Shown here: positions 10,492-35,626 of the stretch, one piece after another
How the letters are laid out: each line of letters opens with the position of its first letter
Position numbering within the stretch: position 1 is the stretch's first letter
IMG/VR virus record: IMGVR_UViG_3300042326_000155
Coordinates: 1 to 35,626 of that record
Reading direction: 5' to 3' (one strand)
DNA: 35,626 nt
Source of the DNA: a virus
Notes under the pieces: model-generated
What the model saw: only the letters and a program-made list of their open reading frames with translations
Database searches by the model: none
What the model was told of the DNA's origin: nothing
Position numbers and translations under genes: made by a program

Positions 10492-11006
10492 TGCTCACAC
10501 TACTGTCAACCCTTATCAGTTTCCTAATGGGCGGTTTGCCGAAGATTCTTGACTTCTTCCAAGACCGCGCTGACAAGGCGCATGAGTTGGCGCTGGCGCA
10601 AATGCAAATACAGCGCGAATTGGAAATGCGAAAGGCAGGTTTTGAAGCGCAAGAGCGCATTGAACACATCAAGTCTGAGCAGCTGGCCACCGAGAGCGCC
10701 GCCAACACCACGCAAGTTTTGATTGGCGCCCAGCAAGCTGAGATGCAAGCCATCTACGCCCACGACACGGCGCTCAACGAAGGCACTAGCGAGTGGATGA
10801 AGAACCTCCGCGCCAGCGTTCGCCCCGTCATTACTTATGGTTTCTTCTTTCTGCTAGTCTTTGTTGACATCGGTTTGTTCGCTTACGGCTGGAGCCGTGG
10901 CGTGCCATTTTCTGAGTTGGCCGAGATGCTGTGGGATCCTGAAACCCAAGCGTTGTTTGCTAGCATCATTGCGTTTCACTTTGGCGGCAGAGCGTTTGGC
11001 AAATGA
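10491..11006 (+). CDS. Holin, 3TM (GTA-holin) type
   Basis: 171 residues. A hydrophobic N-terminal segment (residues 1-16) is followed by a long charged coiled coil (about 22-75), then the conserved segment SVRPVITYGFFFLLVFVDIG (about 109-128) and a C-terminal hydrophobic hairpin ending LFASIIAFHFGGRAFG. The SVRP-x-x-TYGFF and FHFGGRAF motifs are those of the 3TM holin family. It should time lysis by opening the inner membrane to the lysozyme encoded directly downstream (ATGA overlap). Confidence 0.82.
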   Translation: MLTLLSTLISFLMGGLPKILDFFQDRADKAHELALAQMQIQRELEMRKAGFEAQERIEHIKSEQLATESAANTTQVLIGAQQAEMQAIYAHDTALNEGTSEWMKNLRASVRPVITYGFFFLLVFVDIGLFAYGWSRGVPFSELAEMLWDPETQALFASIIAFHFGGRAFGK

Positions 11007-11479
11007 ACATCTCAGCCAAATGCCTGCACATGATTGAACACCATGAGGGTGTTCGATTTAAACCATACCAGTGCCCAGCAAAGCTGTGGACAATAGGAGT
11101 CGGACATGTTCTTTATCCAGATCAAGGCAAGCTACCAATGGATCAAAGAGGCGCTTACGCGCTTCGCCCAGAAGATAACCGCCAGTTTTCCAAGGAAGAA
11201 GTAAATGGGATTCTCAGAGGCGATCTTGATCGGTTTGAGCGTGGAGTGGCCAGATTCTGTCCTGTCCCTCTTACACAAGGGATGTTTGATGCTCTTGTGT
11301 CTTTTAGTTTCAATGTCGGTCTTGGAACACTCCAGCGTTCGACGCTTCGTCAGAAGTTGCTTCGCGGCGACAAAGAAGGCGCTGCTGAAGAACTTCTGAA
11401 GTACTGCATGGCTGGCGGTAAAGTCTTACGAGGACTTCAGAACCGGCGCATCGACGAGCGCGCCTTGTTCCTTAGTTAA
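11003..11479 (+). CDS. Endolysin, GH24 lysozyme
   Basis: 158 residues with the complete glycoside hydrolase 24 core. Catalytic Glu15 lies in HHEG and Thr30 in WTIGVGH, with the exact T4-lysozyme spacing (Glu, +9, +6). The middle catalytic position, Asp20 in T4, is Cys24 here (YQCPAKLWT); T4 lysozyme with that same Cys is known to stay active. The C-terminal motif GLQNRRIDERALF is typical. No signal peptide or SAR segment is seen, so export needs the holin. Its last 54 bases overlap the opposite-strand gene ending at 11426. Confidence 0.93.
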   Translation: MNISAKCLHMIEHHEGVRFKPYQCPAKLWTIGVGHVLYPDQGKLPMDQRGAYALRPEDNRQFSKEEVNGILRGDLDRFERGVARFCPVPLTQGMFDALVSFSFNVGLGTLQRSTLRQKLLRGDKEGAAEELLKYCMAGGKVLRGLQNRRIDERALFLS

Positions 11480-12579: not shown

Positions 12580-12875
12580 TTCAATGCTTCCTGTAGTCCA
12601 GCCAAACCGCCTACGCGCTGACCGTTGATAAAAATATGTGGCATCTGGCGCACGCCTGTGGGCAAGTTGTCAAGTAGTGCGGGCATTGACTCAACGTCCA
12701 TCTCAACATAGTTGATGTTCTTAGCCCGCAAAAGCTGTTTGGCGGCTGTGCAGTTGGGGCACTTGCGCTTGGTGTAGATCACCACTTCCATGGCGCTCCA
12801 ATAGTAGGGTTGCCCCTTAAGATTGTTTTCCATGGCAATGCGGTCAAACTCGTCGTCTTCGTCGGTGCGGATCAT
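12576..12875 (-). CDS. Glutaredoxin with N-terminal extension
   Basis: 99 residues. The thioredoxin fold starts at about residue 29 (MEVVIYTKRKCPNC) with redox-active Cys39 and Cys42 in a CPNC motif; the cis-proline segment RQMPHIFINGQRVGG is at about residues 76-90. The first 28 residues are an acidic extension (IRTDEDDEFDRIAMENN) outside the fold. It could supply electrons to host ribonucleotide reductase, since the phage itself encodes none. Overlap by ATGA on both sides. An internal ATG at residue 29 could give a core-only form. Confidence 0.88.
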   Translation of the reverse strand: MIRTDEDDEFDRIAMENNLKGQPYYWSAMEVVIYTKRKCPNCTAAKQLLRAKNINYVEMDVESMPALLDNLPTGVRQMPHIFINGQRVGGLAGLQEALK

Positions 12876-13504
12876 GTGTTTCTCTCCTTAATGTCATAAA
12901 ACCAATCGTCGCCAGCTGACCATTTGCGTGTGCCGTCAACCGTCCACAAGCGCTGCGCGGCTTGGAAGTCAGGGAACTTTGTCTCAGCAGGGATCAGGCT
13001 CTGGTCGTACCACAGGCATCGGTTGTTGGGCTGGCAGGCAAACTGGCCATTGTCCAATGCAATCCAATTGAAAGACTTATGCTCTTCGGCCTGCTCAGTA
13101 AAGCCAGTGTCTAAGTCCATGCCTTCGGCGCAGAAGTCCACCGTAAACAGATAGCGCCCGAAGTGCCATTTTTTGTCTTTGCCCAAGAACTTAACGCCCA
13201 GGTTACGCAAGCCAATCTTCTCAATGATCGTGAAACGGTAGCCCATGCAGTCCCACAGCTGGAGCGTGTCAATAGGCAGATTGCCAGCGTCTGCGTGCCA
13301 GACATAGGCGTGGATCGGCAGCTTGTCGTACAAGGCGCCGTAGTTGGGCAACAGCGACTCGATGCGGAACACTTGGCCACGCAGGGCTTTGAGGCTGACC
13401 CAGATGGCAGGCTCAAGTTCGTTGTGCCCCTTGTGGTCGTTGTACAAAAACTCGCGCTTTACAAAGCACTTCATGGGCGGCAGCGATGCCACGATATAAC
13501 TCAT
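12872..13504 (-). CDS. Unrecognised 210-residue protein
   Basis: A soluble, mixed alpha/beta protein rich in Trp, Phe and Tyr (about 9 Trp), with several conserved-looking stretches: FVKREFLYNDHKGHNELEP (about 14-32), LPIHAYVWHADAGNLPIDTL, and near the end AGDDWFYDIKE. No catalytic motif that I can name. It lies between a 30-residue gene and the glutaredoxin with ATGA overlaps on both sides, so it belongs to the nuclease/helicase operon. A role in nucleotide or DNA metabolism would fit the context but is not shown. Confidence 0.8.
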   Translation of the reverse strand: MSYIVASLPPMKCFVKREFLYNDHKGHNELEPAIWVSLKALRGQVFRIESLLPNYGALYDKLPIHAYVWHADAGNLPIDTLQLWDCMGYRFTIIEKIGLRNLGVKFLGKDKKWHFGRYLFTVDFCAEGMDLDTGFTEQAEEHKSFNWIALDNGQFACQPNNRCLWYDQSLIPAETKFPDFQAAQRLWTVDGTRKWSAGDDWFYDIKERNT

Positions 13505-15172: not shown

Positions 15173-15200
15173 AGTATACATGTAAAAAAGATTTGCACAA
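15173..15200 (-). promoter_or_regulatory. Leftward sigma70-like promoter
   Basis: On the minus strand: -35 TTGTGC (15200-15195), 16-base spacer, -10 TATACT (15178-15173). The expected start of transcription is about 15166-15165, at the VRR-NUC ATG. The -35 box overlaps that of the rightward promoter. Confidence 0.7.
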
Positions 15201-15221
15201 CAATTATTTTTGTGCTACATT
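15193..15221 (+). promoter_or_regulatory. Rightward sigma70-like promoter for the replication block
   Basis: -35 TTGCAC (15193-15198), 17-base spacer, -10 TACATT (15216-15221) preceded by TGC, an extended -10. Transcription should start near 15228, giving a leader of about 22 bases before the GTG at 15251. Confidence 0.72.
15195..15215. promoter_or_regulatory. Inverted repeat shared by the divergent promoters, operator candidate
   Basis: GCACAA (15195-15200) and TTGTGC (15210-15215) form a perfect 6-bp inverted repeat around an AT-rich 9-base centre. It covers the -35 boxes of both divergent promoters, so one bound protein could control both blocks. Confidence 0.5.
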
Positions 15222-21458: not shown

Positions 21459-21486
21459 AAGAAGGCCCCGATTAAGGGGCCTTTTT
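21459..21486. terminator. Bidirectional intrinsic terminator
   Basis: GGCCCC (21464-21469), loop GATTAA, GGGGCC (21476-21481), flanked by an A run on the left and a T run on the right, so it works on both strands. It separates the rightward replication block from the leftward small-gene block. Confidence 0.88.
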
Positions 21487-21502: not shown

Positions 21503-21562
21503 TTACAGATCAAGGAGAATTGACAGTAACGCGCCCAGTATAAGCGCAATTAGTAAAACCAT
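21503..21562 (-). CDS. 19-residue hydrophobic peptide
   Basis: ATG 21562 shares its A with the stop of the upstream gene, and AAGGAG lies about six bases before it. The peptide (MVLLIALILGALLSILLDL) is one short membrane helix. It is the last gene before the terminator. The good ribosome site and the exact coupling make translation believable, but a peptide this small could be chance. Confidence 0.45.
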   Translation of the reverse strand: MVLLIALILGALLSILLDL

Positions 21563-21762
21563 CAATAACTCCTTGTCATGGCCTCCAACGCGCCTCTGTT
21601 GAGTAATCTGCGCGCCTCTTGCCCCTCGGCTTGAGCGCGTTTGTACTCGTGTTCATTGGCCTTGCCTAATTCGTGCTGATAGCCTAAGTCGATGTAGTAA
21701 TGCTCGGCGTACGTCAACGGCCTAAACGGTGCCAATGCTTCGGCGATAACTGGGTGGGTCAT
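21562..21762 (-). CDS. Small unrecognised helical protein
   Basis: 66 residues from ATG 21762, which overlaps the previous stop (ATGA) behind a GGAGGCG ribosome site. Helical and charged, with a Tyr-rich segment (LTYAEHYYIDLGYQHELGKANEHEYKRAQ) in the middle. An ATG 24 bases earlier is possible but ignores the coupling. No function recognised. Confidence 0.7.
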   Translation of the reverse strand: MTHPVIAEALAPFRPLTYAEHYYIDLGYQHELGKANEHEYKRAQAEGQEARRLLNRGALEAMTRSY

Positions 21763-22172
21763 TTGAGCGCCTCCGTCAAGATACACTGAGCCGTGTCGAT
21801 GTCACCCAGCTTAAGGGCGTCAAGGGCTTGCACAATGGCTTGTTTTGCCGTGATCTTGCGCGCCTTTGGTGCCGGTGGCGTCCAGTCGGGGTCAAGTTCC
21901 TCCAGCACTTCAGGAAACGCGCCATCGTAAAGCGCGGGCGTGCCGTGATAGTTTGCGCAGCCGTGCGCGCAGTCAATCATGCGGCGGCGCTCATTTAATC
22001 GGGTATAAGCGCGTACGTATTCACACGCGCTCATGTTTGGGTTCCACTTTGGATAATCGCGCTTCTCACTGACTGTTTTAACCTTGGGCGGCTTGTCCAT
22101 ATCGGCGCGGTATTGCATCGCGTTTTCAGGCTTGCATTTTACTTTGATGCCGTGGTGTGTGAATTCGATCAT
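21759..22172 (-). CDS. Unrecognised early protein with His/Cys-rich centre
   Basis: 137 residues from ATG 22172, one base after the previous stop; an ATG nine bases earlier is possible. The middle (CAHGCANYHGT, about residues 69-79) has a Cys/His cluster that could bind a metal. The C-terminal 35 residues are a clear amphipathic helix pair (ITAKQAIVQALDALKLGDIDTAQCILTEAL). Nothing identifies the function; it is the second-largest protein of the early chain. Confidence 0.75.
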   Translation of the reverse strand: MIEFTHHGIKVKCKPENAMQYRADMDKPPKVKTVSEKRDYPKWNPNMSACEYVRAYTRLNERRRMIDCAHGCANYHGTPALYDGAFPEVLEELDPDWTPPAPKARKITAKQAIVQALDALKLGDIDTAQCILTEALK

Positions 22173-22173
22173 G

Positions 22174-22389
22174 TTATACATCCCAGTCTTCGGTTGAAAT
22201 TTTGATGTTGCAAAAGTCGGCGTGCGCCGCGTGGATATGCTCACGCATGAGCGTACAGATGGTTTCGATTAACTCGCTACCTACTAGGTCGTTAATCGTG
22301 ACCGTGGCGAACGGTTCGGCCTCGATGCCTTCCGGCGTGAACGCGTTGCCACGGTGAAACGTTATTTTTGTGCGGTCGTAATGGTTCAT
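22174..22389 (-). CDS. Small unrecognised early protein
   Basis: 71 residues, acidic and His-rich, with a beta-rich first half (KITFHRGNAF; FATVTINDLVG) and a helix (SELIETICTLMREHIHAAH) in the second. ATG overlaps the previous stop (ATGA). No domain recognised. Confidence 0.7.
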   Translation of the reverse strand: MNHYDRTKITFHRGNAFTPEGIEAEPFATVTINDLVGSELIETICTLMREHIHAAHADFCNIKISTEDWDV

Positions 22390-22589
22390 AATTTTTTAAT
22401 CCGATAATCTGCGGGGTTAAAGTCTGCAAGGTGTTTGCATGAGGCTTCAAAGGCCATATCGTCAAGAAAGCCCGCAAGTTCTGCGGCGGCTTCGGCGTAA
22501 GTGTTGAACTGAACCGGCTCCACGCCGTCCTCCGTCCAAGTGTTTTCCCATTGATTGAGAAAAGTCAGGGTTTGTACTTCGTAGGTCAT
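22386..22589 (-). CDS. Small acidic early protein
   Basis: 67 residues. Starts MTYEVQTLTF and continues with a Trp-rich acidic stretch (WENTWTEDGVEPVQF) and an Ala-rich helix (YAEAAAELAGFLDDMAFEA). Its start belongs to the repeated junction GAGGTGACGGCATGA shared with three neighbours. The beta-helix pattern is like other small phage proteins that bind host targets; function unknown. Confidence 0.72.
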   Translation of the reverse strand: MTYEVQTLTFLNQWENTWTEDGVEPVQFNTYAEAAAELAGFLDDMAFEASCKHLADFNPADYRIKKL

Positions 22590-22834
22590 GCCGTCACCTC
22601 AAAATCTAAGTCTGCGCTGATAAAGTACAAAGACCGCCCATCCTTCAATTGAATGTAGCAATAGGCGTGGTCGTCTGGGTCTGCGGGGTCGTCGCCTTGC
22701 GTTGCGCCCTCTAGTTCTGCCGCGCTGATATAAACAATGTCGCCTAAGGTGTCGTACTTCTCAAAAGTAGCGGAGGCGGGCACCGATAACCCCTCCTCTG
22801 CTAGATCGTCTCTCATGCGTGCGGTGTAGGTCAT
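22586..22834 (-). CDS. Acidic early protein ending VTA
   Basis: 82 residues, strongly acidic (GDDPADPDDHAY at about 48-59). The last codons, GAG GTG ACG GCA, encode EVTA and at the same time make the ribosome site and part of the start of the next gene. It begins MTYTARMRDD, like the MTY start of its downstream neighbour. An acidic DNA-mimic role (as in T7 Ocr) is possible in principle, but there is no direct sign of it. Confidence 0.72.
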   Translation of the reverse strand: MTYTARMRDDLAEEGLSVPASATFEKYDTLGDIVYISAAELEGATQGDDPADPDDHAYCYIQLKDGRSLYFISADLDFEVTA

Positions 22835-23004
22835 TCCGTCACCTCCTCAATGTCCGTGTCTGTCCATTCGCCCGTGTGCAAGTAGTCGCCTTCGTCACGT
22901 TGCAACATGCCAAGGGCGATATTCTCGGCTTCGTCTCTATCCTCGGCTTCTACCTCATAATGAGCATAAGTTTCATATTTAAAACTGACTGAATAGGTTT
23001 TCAT
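22831..23004 (-). CDS. Acidic 57-residue early protein ending VTE
   Basis: The protein reads as beta strand (KTYSVSFKYETYAHYEVEAED), helix (RDEAENIALGMLQRDEGDY) and an acidic tail (DTDIEEVTE), net charge strongly negative. This strand-helix pattern with an EAED turn is common in small DpnD/PcfM-like proteins, but I cannot assign it firmly. Start and end both lie in repeated junctions. Confidence 0.72.
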   Translation of the reverse strand: MKTYSVSFKYETYAHYEVEAEDRDEAENIALGMLQRDEGDYLHTGEWTDTDIEEVTE

Positions 23005-23264
23005 TCTGTCACCCCTTGATTGATAGTTTTTTGAATGTATTGATTCGCTTCGTCTAAAGTAGAAAAACTAAGAAAGTTGCCTTTTTTATCTACCCATTCG
23101 CGCCCGTCACTAAAAATGGCGTATTGGCCTGCGCCACAGTACACCGCCTGCCATTCTGGTTCGTCAATGGCAATATTAAGAATTCGAGCGCCGTCAAACA
23201 TTTCTACAATTTCATAATCAACACCCGCGCCGTCTAAAAGTTTGTAAAGTTCTACTGGTGTCAT
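23001..23264 (-). CDS. 87-residue early protein ending VTE, AT-rich
   Basis: A mixed alpha/beta protein: helix (TPVELYKLLDGAG), strands (YEIVEMFDGARILNIAI; QAVYCGAGQYAIFSDG) and a C-terminal helix (TLDEANQYIQKTI). The gene is visibly richer in A/T than its neighbours, with runs such as TTTTTT, which suggests a separate origin. It starts and ends in the repeated junction (GAGGTGACAGCATGA and GGGGTGACAGAATGA). Function unknown. Confidence 0.75.
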   Translation of the reverse strand: MTPVELYKLLDGAGVDYEIVEMFDGARILNIAIDEPEWQAVYCGAGQYAIFSDGREWVDKKGNFLSFSTLDEANQYIQKTINQGVTE

Positions 23265-23686
23265 GCTGTCACCTCAGCAAGGTTACGGCGCGCGGCTTTG
23301 TACGCGGCGCGGTTCAATAGGCGCGCGACTGCCCCCCGGTATTCCGTGGGCCAATACTGACCAACACAATAGTCAAGATCAAACCCGCCCGCCGTGCGTT
23401 CAATGGTCAAACGTTCGCCTTGACTGCATTCAACTAGATCGTCATCAGTGACGCCCGCATAGTAAGCGGAGAGAATCGCCTTACGTACGCGGTCAAGGTC
23501 TTTTGTAATGCTACGGGCTTCACTGAAATAAGCCGCCCGCCCGTCTTTATCTTGCCAGTCGCGGCAATAATCGCGGAAATCAAGCCCCGGATTTTTTGCG
23601 GCATATGCGGCGAGCAAACGGAGGGTTTGCGGTTGCGCCTCAATATCAACCCATGATGGAAAAAGTGAGAGAGTACGTTTGTTCAT
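23261..23686 (-). CDS. 141-residue early protein ending VTA
   Basis: The largest protein of the early chain. It is mainly helical with many Arg and Asp (TLRLLAAYAAKNPGLDFRDYCRDW; ITKDLDRVRKAILSAYYAGV) and a C-terminal basic helix (GAVARLLNRAAYKAARRNL). The final codons GAG GTG ACA GCA make the first of four repeated junctions. It starts three bases after the preceding small membrane gene. No domain recognised. Confidence 0.78.
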   Translation of the reverse strand: MNKRTLSLFPSWVDIEAQPQTLRLLAAYAAKNPGLDFRDYCRDWQDKDGRAAYFSEARSITKDLDRVRKAILSAYYAGVTDDDLVECSQGERLTIERTAGGFDLDYCVGQYWPTEYRGAVARLLNRAAYKAARRNLAEVTA

Positions 23687-23689
23687 TTT

Positions 23690-23785
23690 TTAACTCCAAA
23701 GGATGTCGAAGTAGGCCAATGCGCCCACGGTTAAAAGTAAGCCGATAACTACGGCGGCGGCGATGTCATAAATTGTTTGTTTCAT
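23690..23785 (-). CDS. 31-residue single-pass membrane protein
   Basis: Almost the whole peptide is one membrane helix (YDIAAAVVIGLLLTVGALAYF), with a short Lys/Gln head and an ILWS tail. The ATG is three bases after the previous stop and the stop codon TAA is followed three bases later by the next ATG. Small membrane peptides of this type can alter host envelope physiology or exclude other phages; that is inference. Confidence 0.6.
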   Translation of the reverse strand: MKQTIYDIAAAVVIGLLLTVGALAYFDILWS

Positions 23786-23788
23786 GGC

Positions 23789-23926
23789 TTAAGCCCTCCA
23801 GATTGAAAACGCGCCGTTATATTCGCGCCATGCGGTGACCGGCAACGCTAACGCGTGCCATGTACCCGCGCATTGACGCAAAACGCAAATTGTCCCTTTG
23901 GGGTGACCGGCGTTAAAGTAGTTCAT
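23789..23926 (-). CDS. 45-residue early protein
   Basis: Starts in the ATGA overlap with the gene before. The peptide (MNYFNAGHPKGTICVLRQ to AFSIWRA) has two strand-like segments and two Cys; it looks like a very small beta hairpin protein with four aromatic residues near the end. No family recognised. Confidence 0.6.
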   Translation of the reverse strand: MNYFNAGHPKGTICVLRQCAGTWHALALPVTAWREYNGAFSIWRA

Positions 23927-24063
23927 TTTGTTTGTTCCTTAATTTGTGATTCGAGTTTGACAATGGCGCGCTTGACGCGCTCAATTTGTACGGGGTCACG
24001 GCTTTGCTTTAAAACGTGCCGTTGCCAAAACAGAGAGTTTTCTAATACTTTGAGGCTTGTCAT
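23923..24063 (-). CDS. 46-residue basic helical early protein
   Basis: Mostly helix with heptad-like spacing (LKVLENSLFWQRHVLKQ; IERVKRAIVKLESQIKEQ), net positive. Starts two bases after the previous stop and ends in an ATGA overlap. It may be a coiled-coil partner or nucleic-acid binder; unknown. Confidence 0.62.
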   Translation of the reverse strand: MTSLKVLENSLFWQRHVLKQSRDPVQIERVKRAIVKLESQIKEQTK

Positions 24064-24065
24064 AA

Positions 24066-24227
24066 TTATTCGCTCCAGCACTCAGAAGTCACACACCGCA
24101 TTTCAGAGTCAGCGCGTACCCATTCAAGCGCGGCTTTTTTAGTGTCAAAACGGCGGCGTTCAATCCATCCGTCAGCGTGGAATTGAACACAAACAATAAA
24201 ACCGTAGGGGTTAAAACGTAATTTCAT
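24066..24227 (-). CDS. 53-residue protein, first gene of the leftward early chain
   Basis: A basic, beta-rich N-terminus (KLRFNPYGFIVCVQF) followed by HADGWIERRRFDTKKAALEW, the compact strand-turn-helix layout of AP2-like or integrase-arm-like DNA-binding units. The similarity is only in pattern. It is the first gene behind the strong promoter at 24278-24305, so it would be the earliest leftward product; AAAGG precedes the ATG. A DNA-binding regulator is a reasonable guess, no more. Confidence 0.68.
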   Translation of the reverse strand: MKLRFNPYGFIVCVQFHADGWIERRRFDTKKAALEWVRADSEMRCVTSECWSE

Positions 24228-24277: not shown

Positions 24278-24305
24278 ATTGTAAAAGATTCTTTTACATT
24301 GTCAA
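24278..24305 (-). promoter_or_regulatory. Leftward early promoter
   Basis: On the minus strand: consensus -35 TTGACA (24305-24300), 16-base spacer, -10 TACAAT (24283-24278). Transcription should start near 24271, about 44 bases before the first early ATG at 24227. It is the strongest sigma70-like promoter in the window. Confidence 0.82.
24281..24297. promoter_or_regulatory. 17-bp perfect palindrome inside the early promoter, operator candidate
   Basis: GTAAAAGA-T-TCTTTTAC is a perfect 8+1+8 inverted repeat. It fills the spacer and runs into the -10 box, so a protein bound there would block RNA polymerase. No repressor gene is evident in the phage, so the binder could be a host protein or one of the small early proteins. 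Confidence 0.65.
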
Positions 24306-24423: not shown

Positions 24424-24692
24424 TGTGTGTCAATGTGAGTTATGTTTTGTTGATAACTAAAAAAAATATCTGTGTGTAAGTTTGTGTAAGGCTCACCGTT
24501 TTGGGCGCGCTTGAAAGTACCGCTCACGACTGCCCACACTGCCCACAAACTGAAAACACAAAGTTTGCTACTTTTCCCGCGTGAGTCAACGTGAGTTATA
24601 AAAAGGGAATGACTCACAATGACTCACAGACCATGCGACACAATGACGCAGTGCAACATGGCCGTGCAAACCATGGCTCACAATGACCCACG
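24424..24692. repeat. Array of five 17-bp elements built from half-sites 10 bp apart
   Basis: Consensus ACTCACAWTGACTCACA. Copies lie at 24424-24440 and 24580-24596 on the minus strand and at 24612-24628, 24636-24652 (degenerate) and 24676-24692 on the plus strand. Each contains two TGACTCAC-like half-sites spaced 10 bp, one helical turn; 24608-24627 is a perfect tandem of a 10-mer. Copies 2 and 3 face each other as 16-bp arms (14 of 16 paired) around TATAAAAAGGG. Confidence 0.75.
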
Positions 24693-24780
24693 GCCAAAAG
24701 GGATTTTGCTTGAGGGGGAGGGGGTAGGGCCGAGCGCAAAGGGCCAGCAAAAACGTAGCGTCTGCAAACAATTTTTTTTC

Positions 24781-27724: not shown

Positions 27725-27862
27725 ATGCCACTCGTCAAGTCCAAAACTCCTGAAGCCTTCCGCAAGAACGTCAAAGCTGAAGTGCAAGCCGGTAAGCCCG
27801 TCAAGCAGGCCGTGGCCATTGCTTACTCAGTCAAACGCGCGGCAGAGAAAAAGAAAAAATGA
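27725..27862 (+). CDS. 45-residue basic helical protein
   Basis: Starts directly after the previous stop and ends with ATGA overlap to the GroES-like gene. Peptide: AFRKNVKAEVQAGKPVKQAV then AIAYSVKRAAEKKKK, a single amphipathic basic helix pair. Similar short proteins with AGKPxKQAVAIAYSVKR are frequent in phages next to packaging genes. Function unknown. Confidence 0.72.
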   Translation: MPLVKSKTPEAFRKNVKAEVQAGKPVKQAVAIAYSVKRAAEKKKK

Positions 27863-28092
27863 AAGCACTCCAAGACTGCATCATCATTGAGCGCGATGTT
27901 GAGAAACATCCCTTGTTTGTATTGCCTGCGAACTCACAGACCGAAACCGGCATTGCCGTGGCTGTTGGGCCAAAATGCCTAGACATCAAGGTCGGTGACC
28001 ATGTATACTTTGGCGTAGGGCAAGAATTTAAACAAGACGGCAAGATGTATGTCGTCATGCGTGAGCCTCATATTTTAGGGGTTTTGGAATGA
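27859..28092 (+). CDS. GroES-like co-chaperonin, short form
   Basis: 77 residues. The match to GroES runs over the whole length: LQDCIIIERD (4-13, GroES PLHDRVIVKR), a shortened mobile loop with LFVLPA (GroES GGIVLTG), GIAVAVGP (31-38), KVGDHVYFG (44-52) and a C-terminal MREPHILGVLE (GroES SESDILAIVE). The loop and the roof hairpin of GroES are trimmed, so it is about 20 residues shorter. It could cap host GroEL to fold the portal or coat, as T4 gp31 does for the T4 capsid. It overlaps the portal gene by ATGA. Confidence 0.78.
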   Translation: MKALQDCIIIERDVEKHPLFVLPANSQTETGIAVAVGPKCLDIKVGDHVYFGVGQEFKQDGKMYVVMREPHILGVLE

Positions 28093-30275
28093 ATGATCCA
28101 ACCGGAATAGTCGCAGCCGCTAACGTAGCTGCTGGCGGCAAACCACCAAAGTCTGATTCAGACATTCTGACAACCGCCCGCGCTCGGTTGGACATGGCTG
28201 TCGCCGCACTGGCTGAAAGCCGCGAAGATGAAATTGACGATCTGCGCTTTTATGCCGGTTCTCCCGACAACCACTGGCAGTGGCCTGCTGACGTGCTGGC
28301 TACCCGTGGCGCGGTGCAAGGTCAGACAATCAACGCCCGCCCAACGCTCACAATCAACAAACTGCCGCAGCACGTTCGTCAAGTGACGAATGACATGCGT
28401 CAGAACCGCCCAGGCGCGAAGGTCATCCCAGTTGATGACAACGCTGACGTGGAAGTGGCAGACATTTTCAACGGCATGATCCGCCATATTGAGTACATCT
28501 CCGATGCTGACGTAGCCTACGACACCGCTTGCGAGAATCAAGTGTCCTACGGCGAAGGCTACATCACCCTGATGACCGAGTACTGCGACGAAAACACATT
28601 CGATCAAGACATCAAGATTGGCCGTATTCGCAACTCGTTCAGCGTCTACATGGATCCTTTGATCCAAGACCCAACGGGTGCAGATGCCAAGTATTGCTTT
28701 ATCACTGAAGACCTGACAAAAGCAGAATATGAGCGCCAGTACCCAGATGCTGCGCCTATCTCTACCTTGCAGTCCCTCGGTGTAGGTGACCAGTCAATCA
28801 GCAACTGGCTCAATGAAGACACTGTACGCATTGCCAGTTATTACTACATTGACTACGACAAAACCAAGCTGAATTTGTACCCTGGCAACCAGTCGGCTTT
28901 TGAAGGTACGCCCGAGGACAAGATGCTCAAGGGCATGTTTGGCAAACCTGTAAAATCACGCATGTCTGAGCGCCCACGGGTGATGTACTGCAAGATCAAC
29001 GGTTATGAAATCCTCGAACAAAAAGAGTGGGCTGGCAAATGGATCCCTGTGATCCGTGTTGTTGGCAACGAGTTTGAGGTTGATGGCCGTCTCTACATCT
29101 CTGGCCTTGTGCGTAACGCCAAAGATGCCCAACGCATGTATAACTATTGGGTGTCTCAGGAAGCTGAGATGCTGGCTCTGGCCCCCAAGGCTCCTTTTAT
29201 TGGCTACGGTGGCCAGTTCGAGGGCTATGAGGACAAGTGGAAGACAGCCAACACAAACAACTGGCCATACCTCGAAGTAAATCCTGACGTTACAGACGGC
29301 CAAGGCGCAGTCTTGCCACTACCCCAGCGGGCACAGCCGCCAATGGCCTCTAGCGGTCTATTACAGGCCAAGGCAGGCGCATCTGAGGACATTAAGTCCA
29401 CAACCGGTCAATATAACGCCTCTTTGGGCATGGGAAGCAACGAACGCTCTGGTAAAGCCATTCTGGCTCGCCAGCGTGAGGGTGATGTAGGTACTTTCCA
29501 CTACGGGGATAACCTGACCCGTGCCGTGCGCCATGTGGCCCGTCAGTTGGTGGACTTGATTCCCAAGATTTACGACACACAACGCATTGCTCGCATCATT
29601 GGTGAAGACGGCGAGACTAAGATGGTCAAGATTAACCCTGACCAGCCTCAACCCGTCAACAAGATCATGGATCAAAACGGCATTGTGATCGAGAAGATTT
29701 ACAACCCTGGTGTGGGCAAATATGACGTAGTGGCCACCACTGGCCCAGGCTACGCAACCAAGCGCCAAGAAGCTCTTGAAGCCATGGCTCAACTGTTACA
29801 GGGTAATCCCCAACTGTGGCAAGTGGCTGGTGACTTGTTCGTTAAGAACATGGACTGGCCTGGCGCACAGGAAATGTCCAAGCGCTTTGCCAAGACCATT
29901 GATCCCAAGTTCTTGTCCGATGGTGATGAAGACCCAGCCTTGCAAGCGGCGCAGCAACAGATTCAGGCCATGGGCGCTGAGATGGAGCAGATGCACCAGA
30001 TGATCCAGAATGTCGGCAAATCAATTGAGATGCAGGACTTGGAGCGCAAGGACTTTGAGGCTCAGATCAAACTGTATGATGCCGAAACCAAGCGTATCGC
30101 TGCGGTGCAGGCTGGTATGACTGAAGAGCAGATTCAAGACATCGCCATGGGCGTGGTTGCTGCGGCCATGGAGTCGCAGAGCATGATGAACCAGATGCCT
30201 GAAATGTTGCCTCCGCAGGAACCTATGGAGATGCCACCAGAACAAATGATGCCCCCACAAGGAATGCCACAATGA
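28089..30275 (+). CDS. Portal protein, P22 gp1-like
   Basis: 728 residues, practically the size of P22 gp1 (725). It has the typical early segment (DDLRFYAGSPDNHWQWPADV; QHVRQVTNDMRQNRPGAKV), the ASYYYIDYDKTKL wing region and the GQYNASLGMGSNERSGKAI segment. The last 130 residues are helical, ending in a Met/Pro/Gln-rich tail (MPEMLPPQEPMEMPPEQMMP). In P22 the C-terminal helices form the barrel inside the head. It forms the dodecameric DNA gate onto which the terminase docks and below which gp4 binds. Confidence 0.93.
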   Translation: MNDPTGIVAAANVAAGGKPPKSDSDILTTARARLDMAVAALAESREDEIDDLRFYAGSPDNHWQWPADVLATRGAVQGQTINARPTLTINKLPQHVRQVTNDMRQNRPGAKVIPVDDNADVEVADIFNGMIRHIEYISDADVAYDTACENQVSYGEGYITLMTEYCDENTFDQDIKIGRIRNSFSVYMDPLIQDPTGADAKYCFITEDLTKAEYERQYPDAAPISTLQSLGVGDQSISNWLNEDTVRIASYYYIDYDKTKLNLYPGNQSAFEGTPEDKMLKGMFGKPVKSRMSERPRVMYCKINGYEILEQKEWAGKWIPVIRVVGNEFEVDGRLYISGLVRNAKDAQRMYNYWVSQEAEMLALAPKAPFIGYGGQFEGYEDKWKTANTNNWPYLEVNPDVTDGQGAVLPLPQRAQPPMASSGLLQAKAGASEDIKSTTGQYNASLGMGSNERSGKAILARQREGDVGTFHYGDNLTRAVRHVARQLVDLIPKIYDTQRIARIIGEDGETKMVKINPDQPQPVNKIMDQNGIVIEKIYNPGVGKYDVVATTGPGYATKRQEALEAMAQLLQGNPQLWQVAGDLFVKNMDWPGAQEMSKRFAKTIDPKFLSDGDEDPALQAAQQQIQAMGAEMEQMHQMIQNVGKSIEMQDLERKDFEAQIKLYDAETKRIAAVQAGMTEEQIQDIAMGVVAAAMESQSMMNQMPEMLPPQEPMEMPPEQMMPPQGMPQ

Positions 30276-30634
30276 AAGCGAATGAATTTTTAGGCTTGCT
30301 GTTCCTAGCCCGCGACGTTGCGCACAGTGTTCACTTGAACACCCGCAGTTTCAGCAAGCACGAAGCGCTCAACATCTTCTACAACCGCATCATTGGTGCG
30401 GCTGACGACTTTGCTGAAGCCTACCAAGGCCGCTACGGTCTGATTGGCCCCATCACCCTGCATTCGGCTAAAAAGACGGCTAATATCATCGAATTCCTGC
30501 AAGATTCACTTGCTGAAATTGAAGCCGCAAGATACGATGTGTGTGATAAATCAGACTCATCACTGCAACAATTGATAGATAATATCGTTGAGGTATATCT
30601 CCGGACTTTGTACAAACTTAAATTCCTCGCATAA
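30272..30634 (+). CDS. DUF5856-like helical protein
   Basis: 120 residues, all helix. The pattern LLFLARDVAHSVHLNTRSFSKHEAL (about 8-32), NRIIGAADDFAEAYQGRYG and the C-terminal IVEVYLRTLYKLKFL with several conserved His/Asp/Glu resembles the DUF5856 family of phage proteins, which look ferritin/Dps-like in arrangement. I cannot say whether it binds metal. It overlaps the portal gene by ATGA. Confidence 0.75.
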   Translation: MKANEFLGLLFLARDVAHSVHLNTRSFSKHEALNIFYNRIIGAADDFAEAYQGRYGLIGPITLHSAKKTANIIEFLQDSLAEIEAARYDVCDKSDSSLQQLIDNIVEVYLRTLYKLKFLA

Positions 30635-35017: not shown

Positions 35018-35626
35018 ATGTCAAACAGTATTCTGACGATCGACATGATCACAAGAAAAGCTCTCGAAATCCTCGAGAACAACCTTGTGATCACCCGTAA
35101 CGTGAACCGCCAGTACGACGACAGCTTCGCTGTTGAAGGTGCTAAGATCGGTTCAACCCTGCGTATTCGCTTACCCGATCGCGCTTTGGTAACTGACGGC
35201 GCTGCCTTGCAAGTGCAAGACGACAACGAACAGTTCACCACTTTGACCGTTGCCAGCCAAAAGCACATCGGTGTCAACTTCACATCTGCTGAATTGACCA
35301 TGCAGTTGGATGACTTCGCAGAGCGTGTGTTGAAGCCTCGTATCAGCCAATTGGCGTCTTCCGTTGATGCTGACGTGGCCAATGCGTACAAATCAATCGG
35401 TAACACCGTTGGTACACCTGGCACCACTCCTTCTACTTCTTTGGTCTTGCTTCAAGCCCAGCAGAAGCTGAACGAAAACGCAGCTGTGATGTCTCCACGT
35501 TACGCTACCGTGAACCCAGCAGCCAACGCTGGCTTGGTTGAAGGCATGAAAGGTCTGTTCAATCCTACAGACACTATCAGCAAGCAATTCAAGAACGGCA
35601 TGATGGGCACTGGCGTGTTGGGCTTT
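35018..35626 (+). CDS. Major capsid (coat) protein, P22 gp5-like, 5' part
   Basis: 203 codons from ATG 35018 (AAAGGA about 8 bases upstream), running off the end of the window. The N-terminus (SNSILTIDMITRKALEILEN, then RQYDDSFAVEGAKIGSTLRI) fits the P22-type coat. Codon phase at the window end matches that at position 213, so it joins the 3' part at 1-806 without a shift, giving 400 residues. Confidence 0.92.
   Translation, partial: MSNSILTIDMITRKALEILENNLVITRNVNRQYDDSFAVEGAKIGSTLRIRLPDRALVTDGAALQVQDDNEQFTTLTVASQKHIGVNFTSAELTMQLDDFAERVLKPRISQLASSVDADVANAYKSIGNTVGTPGTTPSTSLVLLQAQQKLNENAAVMSPRYATVNPAANAGLVEGMKGLFNPTDTISKQFKNGMMGTGVLGF
35415..35626. repeat. Contig-end overlap, right copy
   Basis: Counterpart of 1-212 with seven silent differences. 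After removing one copy the circle is about 35,414 bp. Confidence 0.9.

Follow-up and report, generated by a model that had tools for sequence, protein, structure and literature searches.

What is the function of a leftward array of thirteen very small genes, packed end to end between the replication and packaging genes of a freshwater virus? We addressed this question in IMG/VR record IMGVR_UViG_3300042326_000155, a virus called a freshwater bacterial virus, whose entire 35,626 nucleotides (nt) constitute the window analyzed here. A preliminary description had likened the layout of the array (24227 to 21503, minus strand) to that of host-takeover or anti-defense genes and had treated its members as equal candidates. 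We find that the genes are real and that four of them recur in nearly every relative. The array is probably an accessory early operon for host takeover and counter-defense, in which a fixed frame of four small proteins is combined with swappable cargo.

The genes are numbered from g1, transcribed first, to g13, and all lie on the minus strand. All thirteen open reading frames (ORFs) of 19–141 amino acids reported for the interval are present, and the tight packing noted for them is borne out, with 11 of 12 junctions falling within 4 nt and a tiling coverage of 0.997. Among 60 dinucleotide shuffles, coverage never exceeded 0.897 and no more than 8 junctions fell within 4 nt; the opposite strand gave a coverage of 0.747. 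An independent dynamic-programming tiler returned the same thirteen genes, placing the start of g11 at ATG 22181. The starts that we prefer, which are backed by relatives, are ATG 24063 for g2 (46 residues) and ATG 22172 for g11 (137 residues). The ratio of nonsynonymous to synonymous substitution rates (dN/dS), estimated by the Nei–Gojobori method on short genes for which dS is often saturated, is well below 1 in 11 of the 13 genes (g2–g5, g7, and g9–g13, together with g8 at 0.08); g1 has no relative, and the comparison for g6 is partial and saturated. Because the tiling lies far above that of the shuffled controls and dN/dS is well below 1 in these 11 genes, we consider the thirteen genes confirmed, most of them under selection on the protein. 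A standard GGTGAC stop-start junction appeared to link cargo genes in the window and was considered as a general coupling device. It was dropped, since just 16 of the 354 junctions in 32 of the slots surveyed below have it; plain 4-nt overlaps make up 177 of the same 354.

We then compared the position occupied by the operon, here termed the slot, across relatives. From a scan with a terS profile we took the best 80 of at least 579 relatives, giving 81 sequences with the window. Complete slots were found in 58, of which 9 were duplicates, leaving 49 distinct slots; the 23 partial slots were set aside. A separate scan with g5 gave 22 loci. As in the window, the slot is divergent from terS/terL and convergent with the primase gene. 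By tblastn, g13 is present in all 49 distinct slots, g12 in 48, g4 in 46, and g10 in 43. The remaining genes are rarer: g11 (21), g7 (20), g9 (19), g6 (9), g3 (8), g2, g5, and g8 (2 each), and g1 (1). Gene order is almost constant and runs promoter, cargo, g4, cargo, g10, g11 or an alternative family (C9), g12, and g13.

Gene content turns over rapidly within this order. The mean Jaccard index between slots is 0.26 despite TerL proteins that are 91–99% identical to that of the window, and a median of 5 of the 13 gene families is common to the window and another slot. In the 32 slots anchored by a located promoter, 386 proteins (326 of them of 100 residues or fewer) form 90 clusters, including 43 singletons, and the accumulation curve is still rising. 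A count over all 49 slots gave 146 clusters, a figure containing some false upstream ORFs from the 17 slots in which no promoter was located at 8 or fewer mismatches. Given the split between core and cargo, and this turnover at near-identical TerL, the operon, as judged from its gene content, combines a fixed frame with swappable cargo drawn from an open set. High gene turnover at a fixed locus among close relatives, as observed here, is a mark of counter-defense loci. The roughly 90 families in the 32 promoter-anchored slots can be regarded as counter-defense candidates, and phages of freshwater bacteria as a potentially large source of small candidate inhibitors.

Very high turnover and many singletons could also be expected of a loosely constrained dumping ground for small ORFs with little function. 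However, median dN/dS in the core genes is 0.07–0.15 and most cargo values are low, which contradicts such a view for 11 of the 13 genes, and neither the 99.7% tiling nor the retention of a promoter and dyad sequence (see below) fits it; we give it almost no credence. The host-takeover or anti-defense reading of the layout, for its part, is partly supported, in that the packing, the strong host-type promoter, the orientation opposite to the late genes, the fast turnover, and the methyltransferases in some relatives' slots all agree with an accessory operon for host interaction. What did not stand is the equal ranking of the genes, since g4, g10, g12, and g13 are near-universal and the others are more or less exchangeable. 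The slot instead yields a ranked list headed by these four as candidates for a shared host target.

The operon had been assigned one strong promoter, and the sequence TTGACA-16-TACAAT (24305–24278, minus strand) agrees with that assignment. It matches 11 of 12 consensus positions, is the sole site to do so and the best sigma-70 match in a scan of the record, and is kept upstream of the operon in relatives. A perfect 19-bp dyad (24280–24298; 9-bp arms and a 1-bp center), probably an operator, occupies the spacer and lies over the −10 box. The pattern TGYAA-N9-TTACR was derived from an alignment of 38 sequences, which were themselves chosen for their likeness to the site in the window. In 37 of the 49 slots it is present in the upstream portion, mostly 30–60 nt ahead of the first predicted gene. 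It is found elsewhere in the slot in 1 of the 49 and occurs once in the whole window, where 0.12 would be expected per genome. Among 22 distinct dyad sites, the pairs set by the search pattern itself (2-18, 4-16, and 5-15) are complementary throughout. Pair 9-11, on which the pattern places no constraint, is complementary in 21 of the 22, and pairs 6-14, 7-13, and 8-12 are complementary in 14, 6, and 6, respectively. In several slots the dyad persists although the −35 hexamer is missing from its reference position. The dyad resembles a repressor site, and a repressor is likely because the dyad, which overlaps the −10 box, is kept upstream in 37 slots and is unique in the genome. We propose that host RNA polymerase would transcribe the operon at once on entry from this strong, near-consensus sigma-70 promoter, and that a dimeric repressor probably binds the conserved dyad and later shuts the operon off. 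The kept dyad makes such a switch testable with a reporter.

A dyad over a −10 box would also be expected if the phage were temperate and the region governed immunity or lysogeny, a repressor using the dyad as its operator. In line with this, the syntenic slot of DSL-LC05, one of the two nearest annotated records, has an annotated "repressor protein C". The window, however, has a single operator with no repressor gene recognized beside it. No integrase or partition gene was found in a PHROGs scan of 28 window proteins from outside the operon, which included all sense ORFs of at least 200 residues. In addition, four metagenome-assembled genome (MAG) contigs recovered in a scan with the g5 profile only (35–40% identity) show no terL or portal match to this phage. 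A lysogeny control region is accordingly very improbable in our judgment, and the phage is apparently lytic.

Two other sequence elements were noted. Direct repeats around ATGACTCACAATGACTCAC and GTGTGTCAATGTGAGTTAT occupy 24425–24701, between the operon promoter and terS; they may mark an origin, serve as a pac site, or bind regulators. A second dyad, GCACAA-N9-TTGTGC (15195–15215), spans the spacer of a probable promoter that precedes the exonuclease genes, and two relatives (L005 and L006) retain it in part.

At its other end, the operon is followed by a hairpin and T run resembling an intrinsic terminator (21462–21483, minus strand), just past the last gene, where it adjoins the 3′ end of the oppositely directed primase gene. 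This hairpin sets the operon apart from the convergent replication genes and would isolate it from them. The operon nonetheless abuts the primase gene, and it might serve mainly phage DNA replication, supplying small factors that tune the neighboring primase, polymerase, and exonuclease. The slot of MW202483, the other nearest annotated record, has an annotated "dnaa protein helix-turn-helix", and the syntenic slot of a distant relative encodes a DnaN-like sliding clamp (L023:5359–5949; Pfam DNA_pol3_beta_2, E 2.5e-11). Against a replication role, the operon runs convergent to the replication genes with its own terminator, those genes are conserved whereas most cargo turns over, and no replication family appeared among the 96 slot proteins scanned. 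On balance we find this explanation unlikely.

The four core genes are small proteins with distinct features. Gene g4 (23690–23785) encodes 31 residues with a single predicted membrane helix and is conserved as a single-helix peptide of 26–34 residues, apart from one predicted copy of 42; its median dN/dS is 0.13. Gene g10 (22174–22389; 71 residues, net charge −7.1, median dN/dS 0.12) encodes an acidic protein with an invariant TFH-x-GNAF stretch, for which the structure model is α/β with a predicted local distance difference test (pLDDT) score of 82.6. The alignment of g12 (21562–21762; 66 residues, median dN/dS 0.07) contains 26 invariant columns. Gene g13 (21503–21562) encodes a hydrophobic, predicted membrane microprotein that is 19 residues long in all 44 clustered copies. 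Its diversity at the three codon positions is 0.228, 0.067, and 0.341, and its median dN/dS is 0.15 over 54 comparisons. The count for g13 depends on the method: tblastn over the whole locus detects it in 49 of 49 slots, clustering in 44, and a direct ORF search of the last 260 nt in 42 of 49. The smallest gene of the operon is its most conserved member. It was found by comparison rather than annotation, which illustrates that the smallest member of an operon can be the most conserved.

The preliminary description had mentioned two single membrane helices, and these correspond to g4 and g13 (maximum Kyte–Doolittle values of 2.6 and 3.1), the membrane location of both being a hydropathy prediction. 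That the four core genes recur in almost all slots is an argument for a single constant function. The membrane peptides g4 and g13, together with acidic g10 and g12, probably act on one constant host target, plausibly at the membrane. A more specific version of this idea would be a cargo platform, in which the repressor-controlled promoter, the g4 and g13 micropeptides (31 and 19 residues), g10, and g12 form an invariant engine acting on a single conserved host membrane target, with single-gene cargo swapped between close relatives to match host defenses. We offer this version tentatively and consider it rather unlikely; if it were true, g13 would be among the smallest universally kept phage effectors.

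Two single hydrophobic helices are also what might be seen if g4 and g13 were lysis or envelope-disruption proteins and the operon acted late. Here the arrangement of the genome is informative. The endolysin gene (11003–11479, plus strand) belongs, with neighboring membrane proteins, to a distinct rightward cluster some 10 kb from the operon, which itself runs against the late genes from a host-type promoter, so that we judge a lysis role quite improbable. A precedent for very small membrane proteins acting on a host envelope process is Gp11 of the S. aureus phage PhiNM1, described as a 53-residue membrane protein with two predicted helices that came from an early-gene screen and blocks cell division (PMC11237401). 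No homology is claimed, and g13 and g4 differ from Gp11 in having 19 and 31 residues with one helix each. In size and hydrophobicity, g13 also resembles a second group of small proteins. The Ibs-type toxic membrane peptides of E. coli have 19 residues and are type I toxins with an antisense RNA. Unlike these, g13 sits inside a polycistron, and the window matched no family in Rfam.

The cargo genes differ in charge, conservation, and distribution. At the promoter-proximal end, g1 (24066–24227; 53 residues) has no relative found beyond its single slot. It is followed by two basic proteins, g2 (23923–24063; isoelectric point (pI) 10.3), which is the one basic protein previously recorded, and g3 (23789–23926; 45 residues, pI 9.4, dN/dS at most 0.02). 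The several acidic proteins mentioned earlier are g6–g10 (pI 4.1–4.9; net charge −7 to −13). Of these, g6 (23001–23264; 87 residues, −9.5) is cargo whose relatives match in parts only; g7 (22831–23004; 57 residues, −13.3) is semi-core, with a clustering count of 26 of 49 slots compared with 20 by tblastn; g8 (22586–22834; 82 residues, −13.4) is cargo; and g9 (22386–22589; 67 residues, −8.4) is semi-core. Gene g11 (21759–22172) is likewise semi-core, with 33 of 49 slots by clustering against 21 by tblastn. In another family (C18; L008:5745–6035, compared with window 23001–23264), the C-terminal half of g6 is joined to an N-terminal half unlike that of g6, which suggests domain swapping within the cargo.

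Gene g5 (23261–23686; 141 residues) is rare cargo in these slots and belongs to a wide family comprising 98 viral-contig relatives (80 kept) and the four MAG contigs at 35–40% identity, with an invariant GQY-x-PTEYR motif. Where g5 lies beside a recognizable TerL gene, down to 36–37% identity, it is on the opposite strand, as in the window. The structure model of g5 is confident (pLDDT 92.9), and BFVD contained one true relative, an uncharacterized protein of an uncultured phage. With VIA-align, the best Z score was 4.6 for both g5 and g10, with many tied rows. One tied row for g10 was p56, a phage inhibitor of uracil-DNA glycosylase, in complex with that enzyme (3zoq_B, Z 4.0); this row was not used, since unrelated folds by the dozen score equally well. 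A PDB sequence search with profiles of g5, g10, g11, and g12 gave nothing below E 0.08. No match was obtained by tblastn in 50,697 phage records with the window g5, g10, and g12 and two other members of the g5 family, or in a plasmid collection with another g5-family member.

For the 10 window proteins compared with PHROGs and Pfam, a set outside which g3, g4, and g13 lie, the earlier statement that no family can be named is borne out. The sole match among the 10 was g7 to phrog_1235, whose function is unassigned (E 3e-4). We also scanned 96 slot proteins, g3 included, against PADLOC, PHROGs, Pfam, and NCBIfam. Pfam gave two matches (DUF7227 and DUF7249) and NCBIfam two weak ones. PHROGs gave one named function, DNA methyltransferase, besides a weak "prohead" match (E 8e-4), which is also the only exception to the absence of virion families among these proteins. 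The DNA methyltransferase cluster occurs in 5 of the 49 slots, its tested member matching phrog_757 (E 1e-48), and the MW202483 slot has an annotated cytosine methyltransferase. Methyltransferases are a well-known means of restriction evasion, and their occurrence in relatives' slots is the only direct hint of counter-defense. The DUF7227 family (C11; L116:6298–6954) is cargo in 12 of the 49 slots and is present in DSL-LC05; a word search of one open-access library found no paper on it.

Several of our results weigh against a takeover and counter-defense operon. No window gene matches a known anti-defense or takeover protein, and the methyltransferase-like gene occurs in relatives' slots and not in the window. 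Anti-CRISPR, anti-restriction, and RNA polymerase inhibitor folds had been suggested as places to look, and no confident match to them was found for the models of g5 and g10, the 2 of 13 proteins modeled; for neither did a Foldseek search of the PDB find anything at E 0.001. PADLOC returned one weak match among the 96 slot proteins, its models covering defense and not anti-defense. The strict dyad pattern is absent from 12 of the 49 slots, and no repressor gene was recognized adjoining the dyad in the window. Even with these points, we still favor host takeover and counter-defense, with the cargo, mostly under 100 residues and turning over rapidly, most likely acting as inhibitors of variable host functions or defenses.

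How does this operon compare with known systems? The host takeover module of the Bacillus phage SPO1 comprises 26 genes in several operons, with early expression demonstrated and several genes toxic (PMC6873191). The likeness is one of layout, in that the SPO1 genes are mostly small and clustered and carry promoters and ribosome sites typical of genes with high expression (PMC6873191). The present locus differs in being one operon with a fixed core, swappable cargo, and a conserved dyad. By analogy, the operon may work like the SPO1 module; we stop short of classing it as a proven member, since expression and toxicity define such modules. A second comparison is with accessory genes of E. coli phages that were chosen computationally and assayed in hosts for anti-defense (PMC12373910); the operon may work in a similar way to these as well. 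They are likewise accessory and some are small, acting on restriction enzymes or the cell surface (PMC12373910).

A parallel in position is DSL-LC05 (OR003940; PMC10611076), itself a metagenome assembly, in which small genes likewise run leftward in the slot bounded by primase and terS. This slot has the C9 and DUF7227 families in common with the surveyed slots. It differs in having an annotated repressor and no convincing tblastn match to g4, g10, g12, or g13, and the dyad pattern was not found in it. Word searches of one open-access library for work on host takeover, variable early regions, and very small membrane proteins found no account of this operon. The takeover-type class is already known; what is unusual here is the universal gene of 19 residues, together with the fixed-frame design.

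Finally, we examined the genome that carries the operon. Its portal, coat, head-closure, and ejection genes are of P22 type (phrog_156, phrog_283, phrog_578, and phrog_598 in the PHROGs scan), and the database annotation of relatives reads "phage P22 like portal protein"; judged by these matches, the phage is a P22-headed podovirus. Its replication genes encode DNA polymerase, exonuclease, helicase, and primase, and the operon lies between the convergent primase gene and divergent terS/terL. A megablast search with 22 kb of the window matched no phage record. The closest relatives found are metagenome assemblies, as are the nearest annotated records, MW202483 being taken as one from its environmental source (Manatee Spring) and the absence of a host; the host of DSL-LC05 is predicted to be a member of the Gammaproteobacteria (PMC10611076). 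The coat (major head protein) gene is split across the record ends (35018–35626 and 3–806), though the record is classed as linear, and the record is therefore probably a circularly permuted, nearly complete genome. Three further genes were noted away from the operon: a 210-residue protein of phrog_3704, named ferredoxin, within the leftward helicase unit (12872–13504); a GroES-like co-chaperonin (phrog_3188) ahead of the portal gene (27859–28092); and a "starvation-inducible transcriptional regulator" (phrog_858) after it (30272–30634).

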